Shown here: one piece after another, positions 6,772 through 28,276 of the stretch
Layout of the letters: each line of letters opens with the position of its first letter
Numbering within the stretch: position 1 is the stretch's first letter
Source: Kineosporia babensis
GTDB taxonomy: Bacteria > Actinomycetota > Actinomycetes > Actinomycetales > Kineosporiaceae
Direction: 5' to 3'
DNA: 64,000 nucleotides
Assembly: GCF_021129305.1 (NCBI RefSeq)
Contig: NZ_JAJOMB010000034.1
Location: forward strand, 1 to 64,000
Program-made: the position numbers and the translations under genes
The notes under the pieces: generated by a model
The model's input: the letters and a program-made list of their open reading frames with translations, nothing else
What the model was told of the DNA's origin: nothing
Database searches by the model: none

Positions 6772-6838
6772 CGTTCTCCTCAGGTCTGGGACGTGACTGT
6801 TCCAGTGCCTCAGGAGAACGGGATGTTCCCGGAAGTGA

Positions 6839-7438
6839 TCAGCAACGCTGTTCGTACTCCACGACCAGCATGGTCACCGGCACGCCGTCGAACGCCTCGC
6901 CGGCCTTCGGCTCCTGCGAGCAGACCCGGTAGTCACCGAGGTTGCCGTTGACGTCGTCGCCGTCCTCCCGGTCGATGAAGCGCACGCTGGCCTTCTCGCC
7001 GAGGATCTCGCCGGCCATGTAGGCGGTGCGGTTCTTCAGGTCGGGCATCTCGGTGGTGGCCTGGCGGTAGAGGGCCTGGTCGCTGGCCGGGCACTTCTCG
7101 TCGATCTGGACCGCGCCGAGCTCGACCTTCTTGTCCGCGTCGGCGTTGCCCGCGGCCGGGGTCTGGAAGCAGACCACCCATTCCTTGTCGTCGCTCCAGC
7201 GGCGGTCCCGGCCCAGCGCGTCGTGCGACTCCACGTCGCCGAAGCCGGACTGGTCGGCCTTGTCCTTGGCCCACTCCAGACCCTTGCCGACCAGGTTGGG
7301 CAGCGGCTTGGTGTTGGCCGAGGCGCTGTCGCCGCCGCTGCCGATCAGCCAGAAGATCAGAATCAGGACGACCGGGGTTGCGAGCACCGCAATCAGCACG
7401 ATCGTGGGTGTGCTCGGACCGCTCCGTTCACCTGCCAT
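6839..7438 (-). CDS. membrane-anchored protein with two PASTA-like repeats
   Basis: The 199-residue protein has one N-terminal transmembrane segment (about 12-32, TIVLIAVLATPVVLILIFWL) and then an extracellular part. This holds two PASTA-like units, LPNLVGKGLEWAKDKADQSG... and MPDLKNRTAYMAGEILGE..., each ending in a C-x-Q-x-P-x-A-G motif (VCFQTPAAG, VCSQEPKAG). The paired cysteines suggest disulphides. PASTA domains are known to bind muropeptides or beta-lactams, but these copies are divergent. It has no kinase domain. It may be a wall-sensing accessory protein; this is inferred from the fold only. Confidence 0.65.
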   Translation of the reverse strand: MAGERSGPSTPTIVLIAVLATPVVLILIFWLIGSGGDSASANTKPLPNLVGKGLEWAKDKADQSGFGDVESHDALGRDRRWSDDKEWVVCFQTPAAGNADADKKVELGAVQIDEKCPASDQALYRQATTEMPDLKNRTAYMAGEILGEKASVRFIDREDGDDVNGNLGDYRVCSQEPKAGEAFDGVPVTMLVVEYEQRC

Positions 7439-7557
7439 CAGCGCAACAACCCTCTCGGCCGTACTTGTGGGCGGTTCCAGCGGCCCACAAAAGACTTTCC
7501 GGGCCGGAACGAATTATCCCGGACCGGACGGACGCAGATCAATCCGCCTCGCGGCCG

Positions 7558-7598
7558 CGGTCCGGCACCGGTTCTGCATTGTTTTCGGCGCCGGACCG
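7558..7598 (-). terminator. hairpin terminator after the CNNM/CorC gene
   Basis: A 12-bp stem with one G-T wobble (7558-7569 with 7587-7598) has an A-rich 17-nt loop on the minus strand. It lies 19 nt beyond the stop of the 7617-9092 gene. Confidence 0.6.
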
Positions 7599-7616
7599 TG
7601 GCCTGCGGGTTTGTGA

Positions 7617-11452: not shown

Positions 11453-14400
11453 ATGCCCGAGACCACCATCGCCACCAGCACCGAGGAGCAGCAGCGGGCC
11501 GTCGTCTCCCGGACCGAGCGGCTGCGCTCCGCCCTGGCCCAGGTGACGCTCGAGGAGTACCGCAGCGAGGACGTCCGGTTCGAGCGTGACTCCCGGCTCG
11601 GGCGGGAACTGCTCTACCTGGTCTCCAACAACTCCTGGTGCCGGCGCACCACCGAGGTGCTGCGGCTGAACCTGGCCGAGGCGGTGGACACCGACGTGAT
11701 CGTCGACGTCGACCTGTCCTACGCCGACCACGAGGCGTTCGAGCTGGACGCGGGCCTGACCTGGCTGCCGCTGCTGGCGCTGCCCCCGATGAAGGCCCGT
11801 GAGCCCTCCCGATCGCGAGAGGCCCGGCTGTTCAAGGAGTTCCAGGCCCGGCGGCACGAGGTGCCGCTCGACCGGTGGGCCGACGAGGACGCCGACCCGA
11901 TCGCCACCCTGGAGGTCAGCGACGCCGAGGGCACCCGGCTGCACCGGCTGACCCAGGCCGAGGTGCGCCAGCGCCTGGCGGCCGCGCTGGCCGAGATGAT
12001 CCTGAACGTGATGACCCGCCGGCCCCAGCAGGTCGGCCCGGAGCCGGGCGCGGCGGTCCAGCGTTCGCAGAAGCTGTTGCTGTCGGCGGCGATTCGGCGG
12101 ATGCTGCCCGGAGCCTCGCCGGTCGACGAGGCCGGGCAGTTGCCGGCCGGTGGCACGGTGCCCGACGGGATTCGCGACGCCCGGCGCCTGCTGGACGAAA
12201 TTCTTTCTGCCGACGTGGAACTCGCACAATCGGCCACGGACGAGGCGGCCGGGCCGGGCTCGTCGAACGCCCGGTGGGCCGACGGTGGATACCTGGTTCC
12301 AGGCGCAAGGCCTTTCGAGTCAACGGATTCGGGTACGGCACCCGCCGGTGAGGCGACCGCGGAGGCGAGCACACCGTCCGTTGCTGGAGATCTGGACCCG
12401 GAAGCGACCATTCCGCTGCGGGTGACCAAGAAGCCGGGCCTGGACACCGAAGTCATGAAGGTGCTGACCGGGCCGGTGGCCGACGGGCCGGGGACCGGGC
12501 CGATCAGCGGGCCGATCGCGGTGGACTCCTGGCTGGAGGACGGCGGCCGGTTGCGGCCGGTGCTCGGATCGCACGTCGGGGAGATCCTCGACGCCCTGAT
12601 CGGCACCATGCTGGTGGTGATCGCGGTCAAGGACGAGGGTCGGCCGATGTCGTACACCGTGCACGTGCCCTCGCGCCGGCTGGTGCGCCGCGGCCGGGCC
12701 TGGTTCCAGCCGCGGGCCCTGCTCAGCATCGACCTGCTGGCCCCGACCGCGCACGCCGACCGGCAGATCCGGCTGATGCTGCCCGAGGGCGTGGTCTGCC
12801 GCGGCGACCGGGTGCAGGGGCGGATCGACGTGCAGCTGCCGGCGCCGTTCGAGCGCCTGGAATCGCTGATGCGCCGGCTGTTCCCCCGGCACATGCCGCA
12901 CGACCGGCCGGCCTCCTGGGTGGACGTGCAGATCGCCGAGATGGCGCTGCACAAGGTCGATTCCGCGCTCGACAGCCTGCGGCACTACCTGGTCGAGGCG
13001 ACCCACGACGAACAGGCGGACGACGGCGAGCCCCGGCGGCTGCGGGAGATCCTGAGCGGGGTGCGCCGGCCCTCGCGCGAGCAGCTCACTCACCAGCTGG
13101 ACCTGCGGCTGCGGGATCTGCGGGTGCAGCTGGACCGGGTGCGTGCGGCCGGGGTGCTGGGCGACGGGATGGCCGAGGTCTGGCGCGCCTGGGACTCGGG
13201 CACCTGGTACCCCCGCTGGATGCGCCGCCGGGTGGACGTGAACACGGCCAGCGTGAACCTGGTGATGCTGAGGGCGGCCTCGGTCGACGATGTGGCGATC
13301 CGGGCCCGGCCGATCCGCGCCCGGATCGAGGCCGACCTGGGGCTGGCCGAGGTGTCCGACGTGGCCCGGTACACCGGTGGGCTGAACCTGGCCGTGCTCG
13401 GGGTGCTGTTCCTGCTGCTGTGGATCGGGCAGCCCCCGGACGACGAGGTCGGCGACATCAAGCAGGTGCTGGCCACCATCCTGACCTTGTTCGCCGCCGT
13501 GCTGGCCGGGCGGATTGAGCTGGGCCAGGCCTTCACCCTGCGCGGCCTGCTGACCCGGGCCACCTACTGGCTGATGTTCGGGGCCGTGCTGCCCACCGTG
13601 CTGCTGGCGATGTGCCTGGCCATCCTCGACTTCCAGTACGCCGAGTCGGCTTCGTTCATCGCCTTCGTGGTGCAGGCCCTGCTGATGCTGCGCCTACGCC
13701 GCACCGAGCCCCGCCGATCCCGGCCCAAACGCCGCTCGCGGACCGCCACGATGCGGGTGACCAGCGCTTATTCACCCGACTACGCCCGGGTGGACATGCT
13801 GCGCGGACGGCGCAGCCGGGCCCTGATCACCGAGGCCCTGCTGCTCGGGCGGGACGCGTTCGCCTACGTGGTCACCCGGCCCGCGGGGGAGGGGCAGTTG
13901 CAGAGTCTGCTGGAGCGCAGCCAGGTCTCCGACGGCCCGGTGACCGGGCTGACCCGCAATGCCCGGCGGTCGATGGCGCGGTTCCTGACCGCTCGCGGGC
14001 TGGATTTCCCCGGCGCGGTGGACCTGGAGGCCCCGGCGAGCGCCGCGCGACAGCTCGGCATCACCTCGGAACAGGTGAACCTGCTGGGCGCAGTGCAGGC
14101 GGCCACGGCCGGCCGGGCGATGACCTACCTGGTGTTCCGCGATCAGCCGGTGGACGACTGGCGGACCGCGAACGGGGACAACGACGACGTGGTGGCCCCG
14201 GTGCCGCTGGACCCGGACCGGGTGGCCCCGCAGGAACCGCCGGAATGGCAGCTGCAGATCATGATCGGCCTGCCGGTGGACCCGGGCGCGGTGGCCTTGG
14301 CCCGGCACCCGGTGATGGCGGTGGTCTCGGCCGCGGCCCGGTACAACTTCCAGGTCAGCAGCGTGCAGTTGCCGGCCCCGCCGCCGGTCGGGTACTCCGG

Positions 14401-15364
14401 GCAGGCGCTGCGCTGGATGCAGCTGAGCGTGGGGGTGACCTACCGGCGCGGCGACTCGCTGCGCGGGCTGGGCTCGTTCCTCTACCGGGTGCACCGGATG
14501 GACGGCATGGCCTTCGGCAACGGGCGGCTCTCGGTGCTGGTGCAGATCAACGCCGAGAGCCGGCCGCTGCCCGCCCTGGCCGCCTCCAAACCGCTGAGCG
14601 ACAAGGACTTCGACGTCGTACCGGACGACGAGGCAGCCGCCGACCTGCAGCGCAACTGGCGCACGCTGGCGCTGACCGCGCACTCGCGGGTGGGCCTGCT
14701 GCGCGATGTGCTGACCGGACTGGCCACCCAGGCGCCCAATTTCGAGCTGGCCGGGCTGACCGTGGAGGGGGTGTACGGGCAGACCGTGCTGTTCCTGGTC
14801 GGCCGGGACGCCGGGGGCGCCTCGGACGCCTCGCTGAAGGTGGCGCTGCAGCGCTGGATGCGGCCTTCGGACCGGCTGATCGTGGCGGTGGACCGGCGGG
14901 TCAGTGCGCGCACGCTGGACGGGTCGGCGGCGATGCGCGAGCGGTTGCTGCTGCAGGTCTCGCTGCGTACTCCGGACCGGCCCGGGGTGCTGCGCGAGAC
15001 GCTGAAGAACCTGGCCCGGGCGCTGGACGTTTACGGGCCGCCGGGACCCGCGTTCGGCGAGGCGCTGGAGAAGATCGACGTCTGGTTCGTGACCATGGAG
15101 GTGGCCAACGGGCGCACCTTCAAGGGGCAGCTGACGGTGCGGCTGCCGGGCAAGCCGGAGGACTGGGACGAGTGGGCGGCGGTGGACTGGCCGGCCGTGG
15201 AGCGCTCGCTGAGCCAGGCCTCGGCGCAGGCTGCGCGGGGCGAGGGCAACGATGCGGCGATGGGCGGGGCGGTGGCGATCATGGACGACACGGTGATCAC
15301 CGTCGAGTTGATGCGCACCGCCGACCAACGGTTGCCGAAACTGACTCCGCCCGAACTGCCTTAG
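11453..15364 (+). CDS. large (1303 aa) membrane protein with C-terminal ACT-like segments, unknown
   Basis: I do not recognise this protein. Residues 1-240 and about 320-640 look soluble and charged. Four hydrophobic segments lie near 644-661, 672-690, 704-724 and 732-748, so the N- and C-terminal halves flank a compact membrane domain. The C-terminal 550 residues include two stretches with the layout of ACT domains (ALTAHSRVGLLRDVLTGLA near 1073 and RTPDRPGVLRETLKNLA near 1170), the latter with the classical DRPGVL turn. This suggests small-ligand sensing. It follows the PPTase gene by 66 bp and converges on the secretion-like cluster. Codon use resembles its neighbours. Confidence 0.75.
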   Translation: MPETTIATSTEEQQRAVVSRTERLRSALAQVTLEEYRSEDVRFERDSRLGRELLYLVSNNSWCRRTTEVLRLNLAEAVDTDVIVDVDLSYADHEAFELDAGLTWLPLLALPPMKAREPSRSREARLFKEFQARRHEVPLDRWADEDADPIATLEVSDAEGTRLHRLTQAEVRQRLAAALAEMILNVMTRRPQQVGPEPGAAVQRSQKLLLSAAIRRMLPGASPVDEAGQLPAGGTVPDGIRDARRLLDEILSADVELAQSATDEAAGPGSSNARWADGGYLVPGARPFESTDSGTAPAGEATAEASTPSVAGDLDPEATIPLRVTKKPGLDTEVMKVLTGPVADGPGTGPISGPIAVDSWLEDGGRLRPVLGSHVGEILDALIGTMLVVIAVKDEGRPMSYTVHVPSRRLVRRGRAWFQPRALLSIDLLAPTAHADRQIRLMLPEGVVCRGDRVQGRIDVQLPAPFERLESLMRRLFPRHMPHDRPASWVDVQIAEMALHKVDSALDSLRHYLVEATHDEQADDGEPRRLREILSGVRRPSREQLTHQLDLRLRDLRVQLDRVRAAGVLGDGMAEVWRAWDSGTWYPRWMRRRVDVNTASVNLVMLRAASVDDVAIRARPIRARIEADLGLAEVSDVARYTGGLNLAVLGVLFLLLWIGQPPDDEVGDIKQVLATILTLFAAVLAGRIELGQAFTLRGLLTRATYWLMFGAVLPTVLLAMCLAILDFQYAESASFIAFVVQALLMLRLRRTEPRRSRPKRRSRTATMRVTSAYSPDYARVDMLRGRRSRALITEALLLGRDAFAYVVTRPAGEGQLQSLLERSQVSDGPVTGLTRNARRSMARFLTARGLDFPGAVDLEAPASAARQLGITSEQVNLLGAVQAATAGRAMTYLVFRDQPVDDWRTANGDNDDVVAPVPLDPDRVAPQEPPEWQLQIMIGLPVDPGAVALARHPVMAVVSAAARYNFQVSSVQLPAPPPVGYSGQALRWMQLSVGVTYRRGDSLRGLGSFLYRVHRMDGMAFGNGRLSVLVQINAESRPLPALAASKPLSDKDFDVVPDDEAAADLQRNWRTLALTAHSRVGLLRDVLTGLATQAPNFELAGLTVEGVYGQTVLFLVGRDAGGASDASLKVALQRWMRPSDRLIVAVDRRVSARTLDGSAAMRERLLLQVSLRTPDRPGVLRETLKNLARALDVYGPPGPAFGEALEKIDVWFVTMEVANGRTFKGQLTVRLPGKPEDWDEWAAVDWPAVERSLSQASAQAARGEGNDAAMGGAVAIMDDTVITVELMRTADQRLPKLTPPELP

Positions 15365-15410: not shown

Positions 15411-16445
15411 TCAGGCCGCCGGGCTCTGGGAGTCGGCGAAGGCGGAGTCGTTCAGCCGGCCCAGCTTCCAGTTGACGTTGTCGGCGGTGTACTGGGTGAC
15501 CTCGACGTCGCGACCGGCGGCCGGGGCCTGCACGGCGGTGCCCGGCTCCACCACGATCATCACGTGCCCGGCCGAACCGCGTTCCCCGAGCGCCCCGAAC
15601 AGCAGGTCGCCCGGCTGTTCCTGACCGGGCTCGATCATCGTCGAGTTGTCCATCATCTGCGCCGCGGTACGGATCTTGAGCGGGTGGCCGACCTTTTGGT
15701 ACGAGTACACGACCAGGCCGGAGCAGTCGAACGAGTCGGGGCCGACCGCACCCCAGATGTACGGGTCGCCCTGCTGTTCCAGCGCCACCTGGAGGAAGTC
15801 GCCGACCGTGGAGTCGGGCAGGTTGGCGCCGACCATGTTCTGGTCGCAGCCCAGTTGGCCGTCACCGACCACGGATTCGACCAGCGAGCCGGCCAGGGAC
15901 TCCCAGCGGGCGTAGGCGAACGGGAAGGCCGAGCGCTGCACCTCCTGGGCCGCGTCGGTGACGTCCATCGACTGCCAGTTGTCCACGTCCACCAGGCCGG
16001 GCTGCCCCTGCTGGCCGCCGGTGAAGAACATCCGGGCGGACTCTTCGGGGTTGGTCCGGTCCGAGGCCGGGCCCCAGGCCGCCCGCTGCTGGAACAGGCC
16101 CAGGCTGTCGCGGTCGCCGTAGTTGATGTTGCGCAGGGTTGACTCCTGCATCGCGGTGGCCACCGCCACCACCAGCCCGCGCGGCGGGATGTCCAGCGCC
16201 ACGCCGGTCTCGATCACCGTCTGCGCGTTCTCGAGCTGGGAGTCGTCCAGCACCACGTCGGTGTTGCCGGTCTGGGCGATCCGGGCGCAGCTGACGCTCA
16301 GGGTGCCGCTGTCGGAGTCCTCGTCCAGAGGGACCCCGGCGATGCCCATCATCATCATCGCCGGTACCAGCACCAGGCCGGCGCCGAACAGGCCGAGGAT
16401 CGCCAGCAGGACGATCACCAGGCGCAGCGGGACCCTACGTTCCAT
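15411..16445 (-). CDS. membrane-anchored SLT-like / NlpC-P60 peptidoglycan hydrolase (VirB1/TcpG-like)
   Basis: The 344-residue product has an N-terminal membrane segment (about 6-28). Next comes a lysozyme-like/SLT region (VAVATAMQESTLRNINYGDRDSLGLFQQR, about 90-125), and then a C-terminal NlpC/P60 domain with catalytic Cys in FDCSGLV near 236 and His in GHVMIVV near 294. This two-enzyme design matches wall hydrolases of Gram-positive conjugation systems such as TcpG, which open the wall for the transfer channel. It is the last gene of the minus-strand cluster, 4 nt after the 168-residue protein. The ATG at 16445 is the natural start; a longer frame upstream overlaps the previous gene. Confidence 0.85.
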   Translation of the reverse strand: MERRVPLRLVIVLLAILGLFGAGLVLVPAMMMMGIAGVPLDEDSDSGTLSVSCARIAQTGNTDVVLDDSQLENAQTVIETGVALDIPPRGLVVAVATAMQESTLRNINYGDRDSLGLFQQRAAWGPASDRTNPEESARMFFTGGQQGQPGLVDVDNWQSMDVTDAAQEVQRSAFPFAYARWESLAGSLVESVVGDGQLGCDQNMVGANLPDSTVGDFLQVALEQQGDPYIWGAVGPDSFDCSGLVVYSYQKVGHPLKIRTAAQMMDNSTMIEPGQEQPGDLLFGALGERGSAGHVMIVVEPGTAVQAPAAGRDVEVTQYTADNVNWKLGRLNDSAFADSQSPAA

Positions 16446-16449
16446 GGCT

Positions 16450-16956
16450 TCAATCCCCGGTGTTGGGTTGCACGTCGGACACTTTCGCCTCGCTGGTGCC
16501 GTCGCCGGCCACCACGGTGACCAGTACCGAGTCCCCACCGCCGAGCGGGATCGCGATCATCGCCGACTCCTGGGCCAGGAACCGGACCACCGGATCGCCG
16601 GAGGGCTGGCCGCCCGGCAGAGTGGCCGTGTCGGTGGTGCGCAGCGCCTGGGCGTAGTCCTCGGTGGCCCGCGGGACGAGCTTGTCCAGCCACTGCTGGT
16701 TGCTCTCGCCGGGCGCCACCTCGGCCCACAACCGGACGAACTCCACTGCGGCGAGCACGTATTCGTCCGCGTCGGGGATCGCCGCATTGGTCGACCCGAT
16801 CGACTCGGTGTTGCCGGTGCCGCCGGTGGTGTCCACCGCCGTGTCGTCGTCGGTGAGCGCTGTGATCCCCACGAAGGCCAGGATGATCGCGGTCAGGCTG
16901 ACCACCACGAGCCGGCGCGGACTGGCGAACAGCCAGGTTCGGAAGTTCTCGAGCAT
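16450..16956 (-). CDS. single-pass membrane protein of secretion-like cluster (VirB8/TcpC-like position)
   Basis: This 168-residue protein has a short cytosolic tail, one transmembrane segment (about 17-35, VVVSLTAIILAFVGI) and an extracytoplasmic domain. The outer domain is mixed helix then strands (EYVLAAVEFVRLWAEV ... SVLVTVVAGDG). That topology and the NTF2-like order recall VirB8/TcpC assembly factors, but sequence similarity by eye is low. It lies 15 nt after the VirB6-like gene and 4 nt before the wall hydrolase, in one apparent operon. The role is inferred from topology and position. Confidence 0.6.
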   Translation of the reverse strand: MLENFRTWLFASPRRLVVVSLTAIILAFVGITALTDDDTAVDTTGGTGNTESIGSTNAAIPDADEYVLAAVEFVRLWAEVAPGESNQQWLDKLVPRATEDYAQALRTTDTATLPGGQPSGDPVVRFLAQESAMIAIPLGGGDSVLVTVVAGDGTSEAKVSDVQPNTGD

Positions 16957-16971
16957 TGTGCCTGTCGGTTT

Positions 16972-19125
16972 CTAGCGCTGCCGGGCGCGGTCGTCGGAGT
17001 CCGCGGCGGAGCGGTGCGGGCGGAAGACCTCGTCGAGTTCGCTCTCGAAGGTGTCGGGGGCTTCGCTCTCCGAGCGCTGGAAACCACGGTCGCCCGGCCG
17101 GATCACCGGTGCGCCGTCGTCCTGCGGACGCCAGTTCTTGCTGCCCACCGGGACCGGCGGATCGGTGGCGAACACCCGGTTGCCGGTGTTGTTCTCGACC
17201 CGGCCGGCCTCTGCCGGTTGCTCCGGCTGGCGTTCGCCCGCGTTACCGCCGAAGCCGGACAGGGCCGAGCGGGCCGCGGCCCGGCCGGCCCCGGTGCCGT
17301 TGTTGACCGTGGCCGACTCGACCCGGTTGCCCGCGGCCGTGGGGGCGTAGATCTCGCCCTCGGCCGGAGCCTGGGCCGGCGCCGGGGCCTCGCTCTGCCC
17401 GCGGATCACGGTGACCTGGCCGCCGGTGACCGTGACCGGCCCGCCGAGCGCGGCCGGTTCCGGCGTGGCGCCCTCGGCCTTGGCCGGGACCGGGTAGTTG
17501 CTGATCGCCTCGACCCGTTGCGGCGCACGGCCTTCTGCGGCCTGGGCCTCGGCGATGGCGTTGGCCGGAGTGGCCCGCTGACTGGCCGAGACCCCGAGGA
17601 AGGTGCTGAGCGCCCCGGTGAGGATCCGGCTGCTGGTCCGGGCCGCTCCCTTGGCGCCTCCGGTGACTCCGCCGGCGGCCTGGGCGAAGTGGTTCTCCCG
17701 GGTGGAGACCATCTGGGTGAGCCGGCGGAACGGGCGCAGCGCCACCCACATCACGATGGTCAGCAGCAGCATCAGGATGATGCTGAGCCAGCCCGGGGTA
17801 CCGCTGGTGGGGGAGAGCAGCACGCCCATGCCGAGTACCGTCACCGACGCCCCGATGCCGAACACCAGCGCGTTGATCAGGGCTGCGGCCACGGTGCTGC
17901 CGATCCCGGTGACCAGGGTGCGCATGGTCGGGAACAGGCCCAGGGTGGCGAAGGCGGGGAAGAGCATGATGCCGAAGCGCACGATGATCAGCGCCCCGAG
18001 CACCAGCAGACCGGCCACGAACAGGAACGGCACGGTGCACAGGGCGGCCAGCAGGGCCAGCATGGCGTAGCCGACCCGGCTGTCCGAGCGCTTGCCGGTC
18101 AGGTACTCGTAGGCGTCCGGGTCGACGGCCTTGATCTTCTCCGCGGCCTCGGCGAACTTCTCCTGCTTGGCCTCGACGATCTGCTTGCCCTGTTCCGGGT
18201 CGGACTGCATGATCGCGGCCTCGCGCCAGGTCAGCGCGGTGGCGTCGAAGATCACCGGGCCGTACTCCTTGGCCACCTCGGAGTCGGTGCTGCCGAAGGT
18301 GCCGCCCAGCCAGGACTCGTACAGCAGGGCCTGGTGCATGCCCGAGGTGGCGGCGCTGCCGGCGTCGGCCGAGCCGTCCGCACCCTGGCCGTTCAGCCCG
18401 GTGGAGACCGCCGAGAGCGTGGTGGCGACGGTCTGGTCGGCGGCGTGCCCGGCCACCAGGGGCCAGCGGAAGACCATGGTGACCAGCACCATCACCAGCA
18501 GGGCCCAGCCGATCGCGCCGGCCGAGGAGGCCAGCGCGGCGTGCCGGGACCGCCAGATCAGCAGCACGCCCAGCGCGGCGACGACCACGAAGGCCCAGCG
18601 CTCGAACACGGTCCGCTGCAGGGTGTCGACCACGTCGGTGATCAGCGGGTCGAACACGCCGAGGAAGTCGGGGGTGAAGGCCGCGTCGAGCACCGCCCCG
18701 GTGGCGGCGACCATGGTGGTCGGCACCTCCATCACCCAGTTGCCGATGGCGGTACCGATCGCCGCGTCCGGGTTGCGCACGATCTCCGAGCCGCAGCCCA
18801 GGTCGTAGGTGTTCCAGCGGACGCCGGCGTAGCCGTAGACCTCGTAGATCGAGACGTCGGCGTTCTCGGCGAACGGGTCGGCGTCCGGCGGGAGGTTCTT
18901 CGGGGGTGCTTCGAAGAACCCGACCACGCCGCGGCCCGGTACCTCGGGGACCGGGGGCTCGGAGCAGTCGACGAACGGGACGGCCGGGGCCGCCTGGTTC
19001 GGGGTGGTGGCCGCCAGGACGTTCGGGCTGGCGTTCGGGGTGGTGGCGGCCATGGCGGACGGGCCGATGCCGACGGCCAGCGCGAGCGCGGCCAGCACGG
19101 TGACGACGACGCGCCGCCGCTTCAT
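16972..19125 (-). CDS. polytopic VirB6/TrbL-like channel protein with signal peptide
   Basis: The 717-residue protein starts with a signal-like segment (MKRRRVVVTVLAALALAV). An extracytoplasmic region with cysteines follows, and then six or more hydrophobic segments between about residues 185 and 470 (ERWAFVVVAALGVLLIW, GWALLVMVLVTMVF, PFLFVAGLLVLGALIIVRF, WLSIILMLLLTIVMWVAL). A long Ala/Pro/Gly-rich cytosolic tail of about 240 residues completes it. This is the layout of VirB6/TrbL/TcpH-type conjugation membrane proteins. The ATG overlaps the VirB4-like stop (ATGA), so the pair is translationally coupled. Confidence 0.75.
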   Translation of the reverse strand: MKRRRVVVTVLAALALAVGIGPSAMAATTPNASPNVLAATTPNQAAPAVPFVDCSEPPVPEVPGRGVVGFFEAPPKNLPPDADPFAENADVSIYEVYGYAGVRWNTYDLGCGSEIVRNPDAAIGTAIGNWVMEVPTTMVAATGAVLDAAFTPDFLGVFDPLITDVVDTLQRTVFERWAFVVVAALGVLLIWRSRHAALASSAGAIGWALLVMVLVTMVFRWPLVAGHAADQTVATTLSAVSTGLNGQGADGSADAGSAATSGMHQALLYESWLGGTFGSTDSEVAKEYGPVIFDATALTWREAAIMQSDPEQGKQIVEAKQEKFAEAAEKIKAVDPDAYEYLTGKRSDSRVGYAMLALLAALCTVPFLFVAGLLVLGALIIVRFGIMLFPAFATLGLFPTMRTLVTGIGSTVAAALINALVFGIGASVTVLGMGVLLSPTSGTPGWLSIILMLLLTIVMWVALRPFRRLTQMVSTRENHFAQAAGGVTGGAKGAARTSSRILTGALSTFLGVSASQRATPANAIAEAQAAEGRAPQRVEAISNYPVPAKAEGATPEPAALGGPVTVTGGQVTVIRGQSEAPAPAQAPAEGEIYAPTAAGNRVESATVNNGTGAGRAAARSALSGFGGNAGERQPEQPAEAGRVENNTGNRVFATDPPVPVGSKNWRPQDDGAPVIRPGDRGFQRSESEAPDTFESELDEVFRPHRSAADSDDRARQR

Positions 19126-22037
19126 CGCTGTCCGCCGGTCTCGTCCGGGTGCCGGGTGCCACGATCCGAACCGGCTTCGGCCGGGCCCGTGGGCCAGCCG
19201 TTGCCGTTGGTGCTGGGCGGGTTGCTGACAACCCGGTGGGAGCCGGTGCTCACAGCTGCATGCTCTCCCGTGGTCACGGCCGCGTGTTCTCCGGTGGTGG
19301 CGCCGTTGCGGGCCCGCATCCCGTGCCGGGGCCGGCCTGCGCCGACCGGCAGGGCGTGCCGGGACCCGCCTGGTGGAGTCTGTGGATCCTTGCGAGGCGC
19401 GGCCCAGGAACCGGTGCCGATCGGCCGGCCGGAACCGACCGGGGCCCCGGACGCGTCGAGTTCTACTGCGGTGAGGTCGATCTGGTCGGTCCGCGGCTCG
19501 CGGGCCGGGCGTTCCACCACCGGCCGCGGCGGAGTGATCGGCGCCGCGGTGGTGTCCAGTGCGGCCAGCACGTGCGGCAGGTGGTCCAGGTCCACCCGCA
19601 TCCGGTCGACGTTGCCGTCCACGTCCCGCATCACGAATTCGCGCAGGCCGGAACGGGTTCCGGTGAGCGAGCGGGGAGACAGCCGGCCCAGCACGCCCTC
19701 GTAGCCCACTCCCGGCGGGACCCGCAGCATCCGCAGCGCGTCGGCGGCCACCTGCTCGTCCTCGATCCGGCCGACGAACGCGGCCGAGATGAAGTTGGAG
19801 ACCTCCATGCCCAGCACGTCGGCCGGGTTCTGAGAAGCCGCCAGGACGCAGGTGTTCCACTTACGGCTGTCCCGGCCGAGCCGGGTGAACAGGGCCCGCC
19901 CGGCTCCCCACTCGCCCAGGAAGTGGGTCTCGTCCAGGGCCACCAGCTTGCGCTCGTTGCGCGGGCGGCCGTAGATCGTGCGGGTGGCGTACCAGGAGGC
20001 CAGGTGCAGCAGCGGCACCGCCATCTGCTCGCTGGTGGACCAGTGCTCGCGCGGCACCGAACCGGGCGGCAGCACCAGGCCGGGCATGGTCAGCACGGTC
20101 AGCACCGCGTCGTCGTGGATCGGCTCGGTGCTCGGCCCGATCGGGAAGAACAGCCGGGCCAGCGGCATCTCGGCCATGTCGCGCAGGTAGGCGGCGATGT
20201 CCGCGGCGTGGTCGTCGTGCCGCGACTCCAGGTGCTCGACCACCGTCCAGAGGCTGGTCTGCGGGGCGCCCTTGGTGGCCCGGATCGCCTCGGTCAGCAT
20301 CAGCCGGGTCCGGGCGGCCGAGGCCAGGCCGGGCGGCAGCAGCATGGTGGCCACGTCCAGGGCGAGCAGCTTGCGGTCCTGGGAGGCCAGGGTGCGGGCC
20401 TCTTCTAGGGCGTCCAGCGTGGGGTAGTCCTCCGGCCGGGGCTGGACCACCACGGCGTAGGGGTTCAGCGTGCCGGAGGGCGCCGAGGTGAGGTCGATGT
20501 GCCGGGACCGGTCGCGCAGCTCGGGCAGATCGGTGAGCCGGGCCAGCGGTCCGGAGGGGTCGAGCATCACCGAGGTGATGCCCCGGCGCACCGCCTCGTA
20601 GGTGATCAGCCCGGCCAGCACCGACTTGCCGGAGCCCAGGGCACCGACGATCGGGACCAGGCCGGAGGTCTCCCGGACCTCGGTGGCGAAGTGCGTGTCG
20701 AACATCACGGCCCGCCGGCTCGAGGCCGCGGTGTGCCCGATGTACGGACCACGGCGGTCGCCCAGCGAGGACGAGGCGGCCGGTACCCCGGCCGCGAAGT
20801 ACAGCGTGGGCAGCCGGCGGCGGTAGGCGGTGGAGGAGAGCGGTTCGCCGGGGATGAACTCGCGCAGCAGGCCGTGCTGGCCCTTCGGGTGAGCGATCGT
20901 GACCTGCCGCTTGCGGTACGTGTCGACCACCTGGCGGGCCCGCTCCAGGGCCTCCTCCTGGGTGGCGCCGGAGACCGCGATCCGGAACCAGCCGTGCACC
21001 CGGGAGGCGGTGGTGTCGCCCCCGGTGCTCATCTCGTCCTCGATCGCCCGGGCCTGCCGGGCCTGGCGCTCCAGGGCCAGCGGCTCGTCCAGGTCGTGAT
21101 CGCGGTAGTGCCGCTGCATGTCGCGGACCACCAGGAGCTTGCGCTGCACCGCGTCCAGCGCCTGGTCGCCGTCCAGCACGTCGAGCCGGACCGACCACTC
21201 CACCGCGAACGGCAGCCGGTCGGCGTGCACCAGCCAGGGCTCGTGCGCCGGGTCGGGGATCTCGATCTCGTCCACCCGGCCGACGGTGAGCACGCTGACG
21301 TACCGCTCGGAACCGGCGCCGCCCGGGTCACGCCGGGAGATCTTGACGCTCGGGGCGAACGGCTCGGCCTCGTGGATCACGCCCTCGGTGAGCTCGTACA
21401 GGTCTTCGGTCTCCCACCGGCCGTCCTGCACCGGCGAGAGCGCCCCGGGAGCGGGCAGGCCCAGGCCCAGCGAGCGGCGCATCAGCCACTCCAGCTCGCG
21501 CGGGGTGACCGGACGGCCGTCCAGACCGTGCCCGGCGATCGCCTCGCCGACCAGCGCCGCGTCCTTGTCGACCTTCTGCAGCTCGCCCAGGGTGGGCCGG
21601 CGCAGCACCCGCTGGGTGAAGTTGGCCATCTGCGAGCGCTCGCTGATCTGGACGCCGAGGTAGACCTCTTTCTCGGCCATCGTCGAGGCGCGCACGTGCT
21701 GCTGGGCGCTGACCAGGTGGTCGGCCCAGGTGTTGCCGTCGATCCCGGGCAGCGGATCGGGGGTGCGGGCGTCCAGGGCCCGGGCCCAGGAGGCCGCCGG
21801 ATAGGGCCGGGACGTCACCCGCAGGTGCAGCCGCCGGCCGGACAGGGCGGCCATCCGCGTCGCCGTGTCGATGATCAGGTTCAACCGCTCGCCGTCGGCC
21901 CGGAACGCCCAGCGCTGCGTGGGCAGCGCGAACCAGGCCCAGGCCGCCTGGTCGGTGAACGCCAGGTTGCCCTCGATCGTCCGCAACGCCAGTGCCATGT
22001 TCGCGGCCCGGGTCTGGCCGCTGCTGAAGATCCCCAT
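19122..22037 (-). CDS. VirB4-like secretion ATPase (SCO6880 type)
   Basis: This 971-residue protein has a RecA-like ATPase core in its second half. Walker A is GALGSGKS near residue 465, Walker B is LVALDETHFL near 700, and a sensor-like ASQNPAD is near 728. The N-terminal half is the non-catalytic VirB4/TraC-like domain seen in actinobacterial SCO6880-type proteins. Residues after about 850 are a disordered Pro/Arg/Gly-rich tail. VirB4 ATPases power assembly and export through type IV channels at the membrane. It is flanked by VirB3-like and VirB6-like genes, which supports the call. I see no relaxase fusion. Confidence 0.85.
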   Translation of the reverse strand: MGIFSSGQTRAANMALALRTIEGNLAFTDQAAWAWFALPTQRWAFRADGERLNLIIDTATRMAALSGRRLHLRVTSRPYPAASWARALDARTPDPLPGIDGNTWADHLVSAQQHVRASTMAEKEVYLGVQISERSQMANFTQRVLRRPTLGELQKVDKDAALVGEAIAGHGLDGRPVTPRELEWLMRRSLGLGLPAPGALSPVQDGRWETEDLYELTEGVIHEAEPFAPSVKISRRDPGGAGSERYVSVLTVGRVDEIEIPDPAHEPWLVHADRLPFAVEWSVRLDVLDGDQALDAVQRKLLVVRDMQRHYRDHDLDEPLALERQARQARAIEDEMSTGGDTTASRVHGWFRIAVSGATQEEALERARQVVDTYRKRQVTIAHPKGQHGLLREFIPGEPLSSTAYRRRLPTLYFAAGVPAASSSLGDRRGPYIGHTAASSRRAVMFDTHFATEVRETSGLVPIVGALGSGKSVLAGLITYEAVRRGITSVMLDPSGPLARLTDLPELRDRSRHIDLTSAPSGTLNPYAVVVQPRPEDYPTLDALEEARTLASQDRKLLALDVATMLLPPGLASAARTRLMLTEAIRATKGAPQTSLWTVVEHLESRHDDHAADIAAYLRDMAEMPLARLFFPIGPSTEPIHDDAVLTVLTMPGLVLPPGSVPREHWSTSEQMAVPLLHLASWYATRTIYGRPRNERKLVALDETHFLGEWGAGRALFTRLGRDSRKWNTCVLAASQNPADVLGMEVSNFISAAFVGRIEDEQVAADALRMLRVPPGVGYEGVLGRLSPRSLTGTRSGLREFVMRDVDGNVDRMRVDLDHLPHVLAALDTTAAPITPPRPVVERPAREPRTDQIDLTAVELDASGAPVGSGRPIGTGSWAAPRKDPQTPPGGSRHALPVGAGRPRHGMRARNGATTGEHAAVTTGEHAAVSTGSHRVVSNPPSTNGNGWPTGPAEAGSDRGTRHPDETGGQR

Positions 22038-22056
22038 GAGGTGGCCGCGTCTCTCC

Positions 22057-22437
22057 CTAGCTGCTGGCCCTGCGTGCCCGGGCGGCGGTGCGTTTGTCGC
22101 GGACCCGGACCTTCGGCTGCAACCGGTACTTCTGGGTGCGGCCGGCCCGGGGAGCGTTGAGATCCGAGACGAAGGTCTGCCAGACCGCGTTGGCCGGGCG
22201 CTCGTGGTCGATGAACCCCATCAGCCCGTAGGTCGCGAGCGTGGCGAGGCAGATCTCCCAGACCGGTGGGATGTTCACCGAGAGCGGGGTGACCGCCTCG
22301 ACGAGCAGGATGAGCAGGAAGGCCACCAGCCACATCGCGTAGGCGATGTATCTGGCTGTCCAGGGAAAGGTCAGCCCGCTCGGTCCGAGCCACACGGTGT
22401 TGACCCGGTAGACCTCGTCATCGGGGGTTACCCGCAT
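22057..22437 (-). CDS. PrgI/VirB3-like two-TM protein
   Basis: The 126-residue protein has two adjacent hydrophobic segments (about 26-48, TARYIAYAMWLVAFLLILL, and 57-74, VWEICLATLATYGLMGF). A basic cytosolic tail (LQPKVRVRDKRTAARARR) follows. PrgI-family/VirB3-like proteins share this form and normally precede a VirB4 gene, as here (19 nt gap). It begins 3 nt after the small pilin-like gene. Confidence 0.65.
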   Translation of the reverse strand: MRVTPDDEVYRVNTVWLGPSGLTFPWTARYIAYAMWLVAFLLILLVEAVTPLSVNIPPVWEICLATLATYGLMGFIDHERPANAVWQTFVSDLNAPRAGRTQKYRLQPKVRVRDKRTAARARRASS

Positions 22438-22440
22438 GCC

Positions 22441-22725
22441 TCAGCCGTCCCCGAACACCAGGTTCGTCAGCTGGCCGGCGAAGCCGTACAGCACGGCCGC
22501 CCCGGCGATGACGCCCATGCCCAGCATCACGTTGGTCAGTGTGTTCGCGTTGTCGCTGATCCTGCCTTTTCGGGCGGAGGCGATGATGCCTATCCCGATC
22601 ACCAGCAGGACCAGCGGGATGATGTTCTTGACGCCCCACTCGACCACCCCGTTGGAGTTGAGCGAGGGTCCATCGTTCGTCGTGGTCGCGATGAGTGCTG
22701 CTGCGACCGAATTCATGACGGCCAT
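22441..22725 (-). CDS. small two-TM protein, VirB2/pilin-like position
   Basis: The 94-residue product carries two hydrophobic segments (about 32-48, NIIPLVLLVIGIGIIAS, and 66-86, VMLGMGVIAGAAVLYGF) joined by a short basic loop (ARKGRIS). VirB2/TrbC prepilins have this size and hairpin topology, and the gene leads the operon. GGAGGT lies 5 nt upstream of the ATG, the strongest ribosome site in the cluster, as expected for an abundant subunit. No signal peptidase site is clear, so the pilin call is inferred. Confidence 0.55.
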   Translation of the reverse strand: MAVMNSVAAALIATTTNDGPSLNSNGVVEWGVKNIIPLVLLVIGIGIIASARKGRISDNANTLTNVMLGMGVIAGAAVLYGFAGQLTNLVFGDG

Positions 22726-23152
22726 TCGTACCTCCAGGGCACCGGTGAACCCCTCCGTTACCTCGGCGCCGTCACGCTGCTTCGGGCTCCGCTGATCCGC
22801 ACGTTCTGTTACGACCTTGCCACGTCAGGTCAGACCGATGGTAGGGGTTCTGTCACGATTTGCCGAATAATCCGTTGTGACAGAGTAGCGCCGCCCAGCC
22901 GATCGTCCTGTCGATGTCGCACGTGTCAGCTTAAAGCTATGCATAAGCAGACGTCAGCGGCGACCGCCACACCGACGGTGTACCGAGTCGGCATCTGATT
23001 CATAGGTTTGCCCCGCCCGGGGACGTTTGCGCAGGTGATCCGCCGGTTGCAGCGGGTGGTGAAAAATCTGGCGGGGGCCGGGACCCGGCACCCGGAGGGC
23101 ACCGAGGGCGGGCTCTGTGAAGCACCCGGCCCGACCGCTTACAGTTCGGTCC
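22726..23152. promoter_or_regulatory. divergent control region of secretion-like operon and plsC-like gene
   Basis: This 427-bp region has no supported gene and is locally less GC-rich around 22840-22990. CTGTCAC (22850-22856) and GTGACAG (22877-22883) form an inverted pair 20 nt apart. TACAGT at 23140-23145 lies 7 nt before the GTG of the acyltransferase and fits a leaderless promoter. I could not fix the -10 of the left operon. Confidence 0.45.
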
Positions 23153-23932
23153 GTGGCAGAGCTTGTGTATCCCCCGGTCATCACCCTGGCGCGTTCGGTG
23201 TTCGCGGCCCTCGGTATCCGGTTCACCGTCGAGGGTGCCGAGCACGTTCCCGCCGAGGGGGGTGCGGTGCTGGCCAGTAACCACGTCAGCTACCTGGACT
23301 TCACCTTCTGCGGCCTGCTGGCCCGGCCGCAGCGCCGCCTGGTCCGCTTCATGTGCAAGGAGTCGGTGTTCCGCCAGCCGGTGGCCGGTCAGCTGATGCG
23401 CGGCATGCATCACATCCCGGTCGACCGGGCCGCCGGCGCCGCCGCGCTCAGCCATGCGGTGCGGGCGCTGAAGGAGGGCGAGGTGGTCGGGCTCTTCCCG
23501 GAGGCCACGATCAGCCGCTCGTACACGCTCAAGGAGTTCAAGTCCGGCGCCGCGCGGATGGCGGCCGAGGCGGACGTGCCGATCGTGCCGATGGCGATCT
23601 GGGGCGGGCAGCGGATCTACACCAAGGCCCGCAAGCCCGATCTGGGCCGGGGTAAGGCGGTCATGCTCAAGGCGGGCGAGCCGTTCCGGGCGGAGCCGGG
23701 GGCCGGGCCGATGGAGACCACGGCCGAGCTGCAGCGCCGGGTCGACGTCCTGCTGAAGGACCTGCAGCAGCGCTACCCCCAGGAGCCGGCCGACGACGCC
23801 GACCGCTGGTGGCTGCCGGCCGAGCTCGGGGGTAGCGCCCCGACGCTTGAGGAGGCCAAGGAGCTGGACGCTGCTGCGGCGGCGGAGAAGGCCGCCAAGC
23901 GCCGGGAGAAGCTGCAGAAGAAGCGGCGCTGA
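23153..23932 (+). CDS. 1-acyl-sn-glycerol-3-phosphate acyltransferase family (PlsC-like)
   Basis: Acylates lysophosphatidate or a related lysolipid at the membrane during phospholipid synthesis. The NHxxxxD motif is NHVSYLD (near residue 43) and the second glycerolipid motif is FPEATIS near 115; IVPMAIWG is the fourth. The C-terminal 45 residues are Ala/Lys-rich and end in a basic coil (AAKRREKLQKKRR). I chose the GTG at 23153 because a TAnnnT box stands 7 nt before it and family members start close to this point. An ATG at 23117 is in frame. The gene is divergent from the secretion-like operon. Confidence 0.85.
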   Translation: MAELVYPPVITLARSVFAALGIRFTVEGAEHVPAEGGAVLASNHVSYLDFTFCGLLARPQRRLVRFMCKESVFRQPVAGQLMRGMHHIPVDRAAGAAALSHAVRALKEGEVVGLFPEATISRSYTLKEFKSGAARMAAEADVPIVPMAIWGGQRIYTKARKPDLGRGKAVMLKAGEPFRAEPGAGPMETTAELQRRVDVLLKDLQQRYPQEPADDADRWWLPAELGGSAPTLEEAKELDAAAAAEKAAKRREKLQKKRR

Positions 23933-25720: not shown

Positions 25721-25814
25721 TTTGTTCCTGTGCAGCAACGTCTTTGGAAGTCGGCGGGGCCGGCCGGGGGAGGCGATTCGGTGAACCGGCCCCTGATTCG
25801 GTAAGGTTCTCCGC

Positions 25815-25901
25815 GGTGGCGTGTCCGAGCGGCCGAAGGAGCACGCCTCGAAAGCGTGTGAGGGTTTACGCCCTCCGTGGGTTCAAATCCCACCGCCACC
25901 G
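25815..25901 (+). tRNA. tRNA-Ser (CGA)
   Basis: The acceptor arm GGTGGCG pairs with CGCCACC. The anticodon loop reads CTCGAAA (anticodon CGA), with a long type II variable arm and GGTTCAAATCC T-loop. CCA is not encoded. A TAAGGT box ends 7 nt before the 5' end. Confidence 0.95.
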
Positions 25902-26094: not shown

Positions 26095-27024
26095 TCAGAG
26101 CCGCTTGAGGCCTTCCAGAACACGCATGGCAATGGCCACCCGGCTGTTCGGGTCCAGGTCTTCCGGCAGAGGCATCGGCTTTGGCGGAGGTGGGGGCGGC
26201 GGTGCCGCTTCCACGGTTACTTCACTGTCCTCGGCCGGCTCCGCTTCGGAAGTCTTGGGGCGCCGCCGGGGCAGCCGATCCGGAGGTGCGGGAATCGGCT
26301 TGGAAGCAGTCAGAATTGTGGACGCCGACAGCGTGGGGTCGACGGTGTTCACCGGCCCGGTCTCGGGGGCCTGGTTCGGCTCGGCGGTGGTTTTTGCCGC
26401 CTCAGCGGTGGGAGCCGGAGTGTCCTGAACGGGGCCGTCGTGATGCACCAGCCGGGCCACGCCGGCCGAGATCATGGCGGCGATGCTGGCCAGCGTGGCA
26501 GTGAGCGGGATGCCGGAGCGGCGGGCCAGCGAGCGAGGGCTGTCGGCGGTGGTGAGGCGGCCGGTCAGGGCCCATTGCTGGGCGTCGATCACGACCGTGC
26601 GCCCGCGGGGCAGCCAGCACAGCTGCACCTCGTCGTCGGGATCCACCCCGAGCCGGCGCAGCCGCCCGATCAGATCGGTGATCTCGGCCAGCAGGTGCTC
26701 GACCGCGATCCGGCAGCGCAGGCCGGTCCAGTGCCGGCGGCCGGGCCGGAACAGCGGCCGGTCGCCCTCCACCCGGGGGCCGGAGAGCATCTCCACCCCG
26801 GCCTCGAGGATGGTCGAGCGGATCAGCCCGGGCAGTTCCGGATCGGCCTGGCTGGTCTCCGGAATCGGTGGCACACCGATGGTTTCGGCATAGGTCACCT
26901 CGCCCTCGTGCAGGAAGAACGCGCCGCCGGGCACCCCGCGCACCTCGAGCGCGCCCGAGCTGCGGCTGATCGCGAGCACCCGCAGAACGTCGATCGCCGG
27001 ATGCTCGGCTTGCTGAACCGTCAT
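26095..27024 (-). CDS. DUF4388 (PatA-like) domain protein with Pro-rich linker
   Basis: Residues 1-130 of this 309-residue protein look like DUF4388, a regulatory domain of unknown ligand (SGALEVRGVPGGAFFLHEGEV, then FRPGRRHWTGLRCRIAVEHLL). A possible membrane-associated segment at about 170-190 (GIPLTATLASIAAMISAG) and a long Pro/Ala/Glu-rich linker with a run of seven prolines follow. The end is a short helix (DLDPNSRVAIAMRVLEGL). It lies 91 bp after a roadblock gene. A related DUF4388 gene stands at 28266-29312 in mirror orientation. Function is unknown; signalling is inferred from the roadblock partners. Confidence 0.7.
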   Translation of the reverse strand: MTVQQAEHPAIDVLRVLAISRSSGALEVRGVPGGAFFLHEGEVTYAETIGVPPIPETSQADPELPGLIRSTILEAGVEMLSGPRVEGDRPLFRPGRRHWTGLRCRIAVEHLLAEITDLIGRLRRLGVDPDDEVQLCWLPRGRTVVIDAQQWALTGRLTTADSPRSLARRSGIPLTATLASIAAMISAGVARLVHHDGPVQDTPAPTAEAAKTTAEPNQAPETGPVNTVDPTLSASTILTASKPIPAPPDRLPRRRPKTSEAEPAEDSEVTVEAAPPPPPPPKPMPLPEDLDPNSRVAIAMRVLEGLKRL

Positions 27025-27115
27025 CGCGGGCAGCCGACTTTCGTAGTGATGGACGGGCAGGGCGACCGGAGCGCGCCGGCCTCGCAGGGCAGACGCGGAC
27101 CCGGCCGGCGGCGGC

Positions 27116-27484
27116 TCAAATCGTGAGCTCGCCCTCGATGCGCTTGAGGTGATGGCGGGCCAGCGCCAGGTTGGCCTTGGTCTTGTCCAGGGCCAGGTAG
27201 ATGAACAGTCCGCTGGCGGCCTGCCCCCGGACCAGCCGGATCACGTGGTACTGGCGGCCCAGGGTGATCAGGATGTCGTCGATCGTCTCCTGCATCCCCA
27301 GCGACTCCAGGGTGCGCATCTTGGCCCGGACCACTTCCGTGTTGCCGGCCGAGGCGATCTCCAGGTCCAGGTACTTCCCGCCGCCCAGGCTTCCGAGCGA
27401 CATTCCACTGCCGTAGTCGACCAGGCTCACGCCCAGCGCTCCGTCGATCTCCATGGCTTCTTTCAGAGCGGTGTCGATGTCCAC
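27116..27484 (-). CDS. roadblock/LC7 domain protein
   Basis: The 122-residue protein is one roadblock fold (EAMEIDGALGVSLVDYGSGMSLG ... ITLGRQYHVIRLV ... IYLALDKTKANLALARHHLKRIE). Roadblock proteins dimerise and act as GAPs or scaffolds for small GTPases (MglB, CvnB). The GTG at 27484 has GGAG 8 nt upstream and begins the domain; the frame is open further upstream. No GTPase gene is present in this window, so the partner is elsewhere or absent. Confidence 0.8.
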   Translation of the reverse strand: MDIDTALKEAMEIDGALGVSLVDYGSGMSLGSLGGGKYLDLEIASAGNTEVVRAKMRTLESLGMQETIDDILITLGRQYHVIRLVRGQAASGLFIYLALDKTKANLALARHHLKRIEGELTI

Positions 27485-27778
27485 GGGAAGAACTCCAGTC
27501 TCATTTCGACGTTGACACAAGCATGTGTCGGGTAAGGTCTGAGTGCCTGTTTCGGCGCTTCTCGCGAGTTCGTCCGGCGCGTTCGCAGGGTTTGGATCGA
27601 ACCTGTTGTAACGGGGCGCTTGTAACAATTCGTGAGCGGCAGAATACTGCACTCAGGCGGGGGCATCGTCAAGAAGTCGTGTAGAAGACGAAAGAGAATC
27701 GAGTTCGATATCTGTGCCTCGTGATAGCGATGTGATAGTGCTTTGCCGGTTGTCACAGCAGCCGCTGAGCAGGGTTTG
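27485..27778. promoter_or_regulatory. shared control region of two roadblock genes
   Basis: About 294 bp between the two divergent roadblock genes, clearly richer in A and T than the surroundings. GTGATAG occurs twice within 18 nt near 27722-27738, and TGTAAC words recur at 27607 and 27621. No -35/-10 pair was fixed. Confidence 0.4.
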
Positions 27779-28276
27779 ATGCCGGTGAACGCACCACCAT
27801 CCGCCCCTGGTGCCCCCGCGGGCGGACCGGACGCGGTCCACGCCGTCCTCGCCCGGTTGCAGGGCATCGACGGACTGGTCACCGCGTGCCTGGTCGAGCC
27901 GGATTCTGCTTTCGTTCTGGATACCGTGGTGGGCAAGCCGGCCACCGATGTGGACGCCGGTGTGGACGTGACCGACAACGGGGCGCTCGCCGCGACCATC
28001 TCGGCCGCCGCCAGTGACGTGGTGCAGGTGATCGGGCTGATGACCTCGAGCCTGGGCGACCCGGACGAACTGGAGGACGTGACGATCACCTTCGGCCGCC
28101 GGCACCACCTGATCACGCCCCTGCCCGAGGCCGGGGTGGACGGCCTGCTCGTGGTCGTGACCTTCGACCGGGCCCGGACCAACCTGGCGCTGGCCCGCCA
28201 GCAGTTGCGTGCCCTGGGGCCGTTGCTGCAGGTCGCCACCCAGCCCGCGGCGATCGAATCGGGCCATGGCTCCTAG
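27779..28276 (+). CDS. roadblock/LC7-like domain protein
   Basis: The 165-residue protein has a Pro/Ala-rich start followed by a roadblock-like domain. It clearly resembles the protein at 27116-27484: ITFGRRHHLITPL against ITLGRQYHVIRLV, and FDRARTNLALARQQLRAL against LDKTKANLALARHHLKRI. ATG 27779 is the likely start. The stop lies inside the next gene (11-bp overlap), so the two are translationally coupled. Its role is probably GTPase regulation or scaffolding, by family inference only. Confidence 0.72.
   Translation: MPVNAPPSAPGAPAGGPDAVHAVLARLQGIDGLVTACLVEPDSAFVLDTVVGKPATDVDAGVDVTDNGALAATISAAASDVVQVIGLMTSSLGDPDELEDVTITFGRRHHLITPLPEAGVDGLLVVVTFDRARTNLALARQQLRALGPLLQVATQPAAIESGHGS

Follow-up and report, generated by a model that had tools for sequence, protein, structure and literature searches.

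The window analysed here comprises 64,000 nucleotides (nt), positions 1-64000 of contig C28 of a 9.4 Mb Kineosporia genome (G000), and contains at 15411-22725, on the minus strand, a compact operon related to type IV secretion systems (T4SS). The block consists of six colinear open reading frames (ORFs) separated by 4, 15, -4, 19, and 3 nt. The original prediction, made from the sequence alone, of six minus-strand genes spaced by -4 to 19 nt was upheld with two starts corrected: that of the wall hydrolase gene to the ATG at 16445 from the GTG at 16538, and that of the VirB6-like gene to 19125 from 19860. The starts used were 16445, 16956, 19125, 22037, 22437, and 22725; part of the ORF calls (window starts and the loci of relatives) came from a home-made gene caller. 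All six ORFs have a coding-type composition, with a G+C content at third codon positions of 0.86-0.94. The predicted neighbour-like codon use was also found, with cosines of 0.85-0.98 in five of the six genes versus 0.85-0.98 in 39 other genes longer than 150 amino acids (aa); the 94-aa gene fell below this length cut. According to the ATPase, the nearest named relatives are Kineosporia rhizophila (92% in the best segment) and K. mesophila (90%).

Gene 3 (19122..22037, minus strand, as are all six) encodes a 971-aa VirB4/TcpF-like ATPase, as had been proposed. It matches Pfam AAA_10 at 1e-27 and NCBIfam TcpF at 1e-40, the latter under that model's curated cut-off, and carries the Walker A motif GALGSGKS at residues 465-472 and LVALDE from residue 698. 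Its profile matches the VirB4-like ATPase 4ag5 (5.7e-8) and, via the P-loop only, RecA chains (up to 1.8e-10). Gene 6 (15411..16445) encodes a 344-aa membrane-anchored wall hydrolase, assigned from Pfam, PHROG, and motifs. The NlpC/P60 half of the predicted SLT/NlpC-P60 enzyme was confirmed by Pfam (NLPC_P60, 2.9e-15); for the SLT-like part, the Pfam SLT_3 match (0.041) stayed under the cut-off, and PHROG 10030 (tape measure) was matched at 3.7e-44. The DCSG and GHVM motifs are present in the alignment, and the motifs of both ATPase and hydrolase are intact. Gene 4 (16972..19125) encodes a 717-aa protein whose hydropathy shows the VirB6-type layout of a hydrophobic segment at the N-terminus, five more hydrophobic stretches, and a long polar tail. 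The topology of the predicted VirB6-like protein therefore stood, and the family label is to be used with caution, since the match to NCBIfam CD3337/EF1877 (a mobilome membrane family, 2.1e-9) is under the curated cut-off; a plasmid homologue matches TrbL/VirB6 at 0.01, also under the cut-off, and comparison with a CmdD-type profile gave a probability of 53.

The three small proteins proved more difficult to name. Gene 5 (16450..16956, 168 aa) has an N-terminal hydrophobic stretch followed by a soluble part. Its predicted VirB8/TcpC-like character was retained in a weakened form, as hhalign against a TcpC-type profile gave a probability of 67 over only 49 columns. The AlphaFold model is partial, with block means of 70-91 for residues 71-150 and an overall predicted local distance difference test score (pLDDT) of 60.8, and a profile search of the family against solved structures returned mainly designed proteins, plus 3ub1, which we take to be a TcpC entry, at E 0.35. 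Gene 2 (22057..22437) encodes a 126-aa membrane protein in the TcpE/VirB3 position upstream of the ATPase gene. It has no Pfam match of its own, its profile comparison with TcpE was negative (probability 4.9), and a plasmid homologue matches Pfam TcpE weakly (E 0.008, under the cut-off), so that the proposed VirB3/PrgI-like identity is reduced to at most a weak likeness to TcpE. The AlphaFold model was useless (pLDDT 56.3), and the profile search of this family against solved structures gave nothing up to E 1. Gene 1 (22441..22725) encodes 94 aa with two hydrophobic stretches; no family exceeded the cut-off in Pfam or NCBIfam, and a profile comparison with a small transmembrane protein of Streptosporangiaceae was negative (probability 4.9). 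The VirB2-like pilin (or TcpD) label is accordingly one of position, without sequence support. Overall, of the six predicted labels, two are firm, two plausible, and two based on position. An anti-phage defence function was considered and rejected: PADLOC matches of the ATPase to mad8 (1.8e-4) and PprDinG (0.0065) reflect generic ATPase similarity, and the other five proteins gave nothing in PADLOC.

The predicted lack of linked DNA-handling genes was borne out. No TrwC, TraG-D_C, or FtsK_SpoIIIE match was present on contig C28, MOBP and other relaxase classes lying outside the search. Likewise, the claim that no integrase or att site is visible agrees with a Pfam scan of 47 window proteins (46 of 53 candidate genes and one more), which revealed no integrase or transposase, and with the absence of exact direct repeats of at least 13 nt between the 3-kb flanks of the block.

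The surroundings are those of a housekeeping neighbourhood. On one side lies a divergent acyltransferase gene (23117-23932), followed by upp, tadA, and tRNA-Ser, with dnaX and recR farther out. On the other, a 1303-aa gene (11453-15364, plus strand) is convergent to the operon; it is present in all six Kineosporia genomes, and its best Pfam match was only 0.56, with none in NCBIfam to 0.1 or in PADLOC or PHROGs to 0.01. Two further observations concern the tRNA genes near the operon. Between two tRNA-Ser genes, 26095-29312 holds small genes, one of which weakly matches DUF4388 (1.7e-4, under the cut-off); homologues of these genes occupy the corresponding place in two related loci (L020, L021). 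An 18-nt exact inverted match links about 25804-25821, around the 5' end of tRNA-Ser(cga), with 46176 and does not bracket the operon.

The same gene order was found on plasmids. By tblastn, the ATPase matched 482 plasmid records, all below 60% identity, of which MOB-suite typed 238 as mobilizable, 231 as non-mobilizable, and 13 as conjugative. Regions of seven of the 482 records were examined (L026, L027, and L098-L102), from Streptomyces pRVR2, 891-h, pSSFR2, and NBC_01304, Nonomuraea NZ_CP107854, Pseudonocardia p1, and Rhodococcus pROB02. Their clusters follow the order of the operon (small genes, ATPase, large membrane protein, small protein, wall hydrolase), with one extra small gene in Nonomuraea, and their ATPases are 32.7-41.8% identical to that of the window. 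According to the annotation, a C40/NlpC-P60 hydrolase comes last in six of them, and pROB02 ends in a DD-metalloendopeptidase. Unlike the window block, the plasmid clusters have a clear FtsK/SpoIIIE gene (five of seven) or a weakly similar ATPase gene (two of seven) nearby; ParA is also near the cluster in five. Six of the plasmids were typed non-mobilizable and pROB02 was typed MOBP. The nearby ATPase of pSSFR2 matches the protein of a second Kineosporia copy (L042, below) at 3e-10, and that of the Pseudonocardia plasmid matches a clear FtsK at 5.5e-12 and the pSSFR2 protein at 1e-14; Pfam places neither in FtsK.

Two second copies within Kineosporia, L042 in genome G004 (68% ATPase identity) and L043 in G003 (41%), have the gene order of the operon but an adjoining FtsK gene. 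L042 is surrounded by GntR, helix-turn-helix (HTH), DnaB, and DNA methylase genes, and L043 by small genes, some of them HTH-like by appearance; an integrase was identified for neither, although the surroundings look mobile. The hydrolase C-terminus is VanY in L042 (14440-15474, by Pfam) and alike in L043 (14059-15102, by alignment), whereas that of the resident copy is NlpC/P60. Among the nine mobile-type copies (seven plasmid and two Kineosporia), a clear FtsK/SpoIIIE gene was present in seven and a weakly similar ATPase gene in two, at 56-1997 nt from the cluster in eight and about 5.2 kb in the Pseudonocardia plasmid. In contrast, none of 13 non-plasmid loci (the window, L020-L025, L028, L044, and L048-L051) had an FtsK-type gene near the cluster within flanks of unequal length, six short hits all falling inside the VirB4-like gene. 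Three of these loci are short (L044, L051, and L048, which ends 2 nt past the counted ORFs), and the non-plasmid set includes L025 (Marmoricola), whose mobile status is ambiguous. The set does not extend to the core copies in G003, G004, and G005; that of G004 (L052) gave no hit with three FtsK queries.

The distribution was studied in 13 genomes of the family Kineosporiaceae. The close type is present in all six Kineosporia genomes and in G006, G008, and G010, which belong to three other genera (70-78%); a distant type (31-32%) occurs in three genomes of one further genus, and the operon is absent from G007. Elsewhere in the order, 25 genomes gave no match. A sample of 79 genomes from the class, in which at most 10 candidates per genome were scored, gave matches at 35-37% in four genomes of one family and only weak ones in five; one further match was the window itself, and 69 genomes had none. 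In the tree, the core copies of the four genera form one starred clade of nine rows (support 97/93); the second copy of G004 branches next (93/87, not starred), followed by the Marmoricola copy (96/94). All six genes are open frames in all six Kineosporia genomes, and the full six-gene order was seen in four of them (the window, L020, L021, and L052). The operon adjoins the orthologous acyltransferase gene in all six, where upp and tadA are also close, and dnaX was seen nearby in the window and two other Kineosporia loci. In G006, the orthologous acyltransferase gene is about 8.4 kb from the operon in the same divergent orientation; in G008 and G010, it lies on a different contig, with other neighbours. 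The evidence for a shared site is therefore confined to Kineosporia and one further genus.

The operon is under purifying selection. Median ratios of nonsynonymous to synonymous substitution rates (dN/dS) over 15 pairs were 0.10 for the ATPase, 0.22 for the VirB6-like protein, 0.33 for the hydrolase, 0.52 for the 168-aa, 0.13 for the 126-aa, and 0.14 for the 94-aa protein, as compared with 0.06 to 0.32 for five neighbour genes (upp, 0.06); these values are rough, since the frames of the other species had been extended upstream.

A leader/promoter region (22726..22900) adjoins gene 1 on its upstream side; an alignment of four Kineosporia shows it to be conserved, and it is visibly so in the remaining two. 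It matches no Rfam family and its fold is no more stable than those of shuffled sequences (z = +1.6), and a riboswitch or known RNA was accordingly rejected. The region includes an operator-like inverted repeat, TGTCAC-N20-GTGACA (22851..22882, no strand assigned). Searched as TGTCAC-N18..20-GTGACA, it occurs once in the 64 kb (mean in shuffles 0.05; 5 of 100 shuffles had one). Five of the six Kineosporia, and G006 from another genus, have an exact copy of the repeat, and G004 has one with a single altered base; the 450-nt regions preceding the operon in G008, G010, Marmoricola, and the two second copies yielded none. It sits where GTNAC is most densely clustered in the window (five in 126 nt), GTNAC being presumably a BldD half site. 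Control by BldD was rejected, as the spacing misfits the published box TNAC-N5-GTNA (PMC4151990); nor is the published direct-repeat spacing of MtrA (PMC13189361) matched exactly.

The nearest studied precedent is the chromosomal cmd/tgdA region of Streptomyces, and the operon belongs to a different lineage. In S. coelicolor, cmdA-F encode a VirB4-like ATPase and five membrane proteins. Mutants lacking cmdB or the entire cluster sporulate poorly, branch aberrantly, and form anucleate spores; loss of cmdA alone leaves sporulation as it was, and the cluster mutant shows no change in the transfer of a plasmid derived from SLP2 (PMC2782261). The putative transglycosylase gene tgdA (SCO4132) behaves like cmd in antibiotic production (PMC6585502). 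Like the window, cmdABCDEF (SCO4126-4131)/tgdA combine chromosomal residence, a VirB4-like ATPase, membrane proteins, and an SLT/NlpC-P60 gene in the region; unlike the window, cmd has another gene order and a split ATPase (513 + 475 aa). In a Streptomyces-like genome, the cmd-like genes encode 105, 282, 442, 513, 475, and 536 aa, with the SLT/NlpC-P60 gene about 6 kb away; the 536-aa CmdA-like protein has a faint TraG-D_C match (6.6e-4, under the cut-off). Orthology to cmd was rejected, since the window proteins gave no tblastn match to the six cmd-like genes at E 0.01. The window hydrolase alone matches the tgdA-like gene (tblastn, 1.7e-7), and the two ATPases are related at the profile level (probability 97.8). 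The operon may therefore work like cmd in outline, yet it is not cmd.

A chromosomal cluster of Streptosporangiaceae (L028, L049, and partly L048) also has VirB4, VirB6-like, small protein, and SLT/C40 hydrolase genes in order, without an FtsK gene found nearby, and an ATPase 33-37% identical to that of the window. The Streptomyces and Streptosporangiaceae labels were assigned from SLP2/cmd resemblance and colinearity with Nonomuraea gerenzanensis, respectively. Unlike the window, the Streptosporangiaceae cluster includes a strong TcpC match (3.8e-17, L028) and a TcpE-ParA fusion (L049). In the latter (5567-7999), a TcpE domain (5e-20) is fused to a ParA/MinD-like region (CbiA, 6e-5), and the colinear L028 gene (7257-9956) has an N-terminus 82% identical to it; the flanking ychF, NUDIX, and sdhB genes are named by appearance only. 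With pCW3 Tcp, Tn916, and ICEBs1, which represent the mating pair formation class FA (MPF-FA), the operon shares a TcpF-type ATPase, a putative VirB6-like protein, and a wall hydrolase, but not a linked relaxase or a TcpA/FtsK-type coupling protein. The T4SS of Patescibacteria are chromosomal and mostly without a relaxase, and co-option was proposed for them; unlike the window operon, they belong to another phylum and descend from MPF-FATA in the tree of that study (PMC12102498). Domestication of such systems was argued earlier (PMC3158045, PMC12102498). Open-licence PMC papers on Kineosporia VirB4, actinobacterial or domesticated T4SS, cmd/SLP2, and linear-plasmid transfer included no title on the Kineosporia operon. 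The claim of an undescribed system was nevertheless too strong, given the gene order on actinomycete plasmids and the comparable chromosomal cmd cluster (PMC2782261).

With moderate confidence, we consider the operon to be a domesticated core of a Gram-positive MPF-FA (Tcp/Tn916-like) T4SS that has been kept by selection; chromosomal residence, as initially proposed, is thus upheld, and domestication remains the best reading. A T4SS core without DNA-handling parts nearby suggests a gene-transfer device retained for another cell-surface task, and the operon probably encodes an envelope channel or a wall-associated machine, perhaps a wall-remodelling complex. In the relatives, the FtsK-type or similar ATPase beside the module would act as the DNA pump. 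One copy would have settled among chromosomal genes of Kineosporiaceae without a pump alongside and been retained by selection. The products of genes 1, 2, 4, and 5 may form an envelope-spanning complex, with gene 6 opening the peptidoglycan locally, and the VirB4-like ATPase would energise the assembly or the passage of a protein or envelope substrate; alternatively, it may anchor the complex at hyphal sites of growth or sporulation. We infer the mobility of the relatives, the loss of the pump, the formation of a channel, its lack of DNA transport, and its substrate, and, by analogy with cmd, a possible role in growth or differentiation.

Several points weigh against this interpretation. The FtsK contrast is limited by flanks of unequal length and by the small number of independent lineages among the loci. 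The operon is missing from G007 and located elsewhere in G008 and G010. Neither gene 1 nor gene 2 is firmly homologous to a T4SS component, and gene 5, which resembles one weakly, evolves fast (dN/dS 0.52). Relaxase classes beyond TrwC were outside the search, and the pROB02 relative was typed MOBP. Finally, an ATPase encoded elsewhere in the genome could serve in trans.

The last point leads to the strongest rival, which we regard as unlikely: the channel would still move chromosomal or plasmid DNA between hyphae with an ATPase encoded elsewhere, be it a housekeeping FtsK or a VirD4 or TraB-like protein supplied by a co-resident element. The nine mobile-type relatives with a nearby ATPase agree with this, as does TraB, which is able to move chromosomal DNA in Streptomyces (PMC12857230). 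The genome-wide check of the predicted lack of a relaxase and coupling protein, negative on C28, revealed two TrwC relaxases (C20:60934 and C17), a VirD4-like protein (C20:99297), and 25 FtsK_SpoIIIE-matching stretches elsewhere. However, the VirD4-like protein is paired with its own VirB4-like gene (C20:97323), in a block whose order is of the cmd/SLP2 type by gene sizes and VirD4/VirB4/TrwC matches and which therefore represents a second, separate system. Among 12 FtsK-type loci of the genome compared (of the 25 stretches), the best reaches 67 bits against element-type pumps and lies in a multi-domain EccC-looking protein. TraG-D_C and TrwC are patchy across the family, and G004 (one contig), G006, and G010 (drafts) keep the operon without a match to either; the window operon therefore appears independent of them. 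The conjugation-type region of contig C20 as a whole (60934-99647; L079, L080, and L040) contains TrwC, VirD4-like, and VirB4-like genes and an SLT/C40-like hydrolase gene.

Quite improbable, in our estimation, is a membrane ATPase and wall-hydrolase complex without a secretion channel, engaged, for example, in assembling or anchoring surface structures or the septal wall. It would fit the strong hydrolase match, the three of six labels with weak or no T4SS support, and the branching, septation, and chromosome segregation defects of cmd mutants (PMC2782261). On the other hand, the whole module is colinear with plasmid clusters having an FtsK-type ATPase nearby, which argues for a translocation ancestry. 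A decaying remnant of an integrated conjugative element, already disfavoured and very unlikely, would account for the DNA-handling genes missing at the locus and for mobile-looking relatives of the same gene order within the genus (L042, L043), but is opposed by six open genes with dN/dS below 1 in all six Kineosporia, the conserved leader and palindrome, the host-like codon use, the intact ATPase and hydrolase motifs, and the lack of flanking repeats.

The reuse of conjugation channels is known, and Gram-positive chromosomal cases are few and hard to test. Since mobile-looking, FtsK-bearing relatives occur in the same genus, the shift from a DNA-transfer module to a resident machine can be traced in Kineosporia under the domestication reading. 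A T4SS-plus-FtsK arrangement on plasmids also comes to light in this comparison; a relaxase-based method typed six of the seven plasmids as non-mobilizable. Tentatively, mycelial actinomycetes may have domesticated T4SS cores as resident envelope machines on several independent occasions, namely the pRVR2-type in Kineosporiaceae, the Tcp-like/TcpE-ParA type in Streptosporangiaceae, and the SLP2-type (cmd/tgdA) in Streptomyces; these would form a general class that serves hyphal growth or sporulation and not gene transfer. Together with cmd and the Streptosporangiaceae cluster, the Kineosporia operon brings the question of what a T4SS does when no DNA-handling parts are linked to it within experimental reach, in soil actinomycetes that can be cultured.

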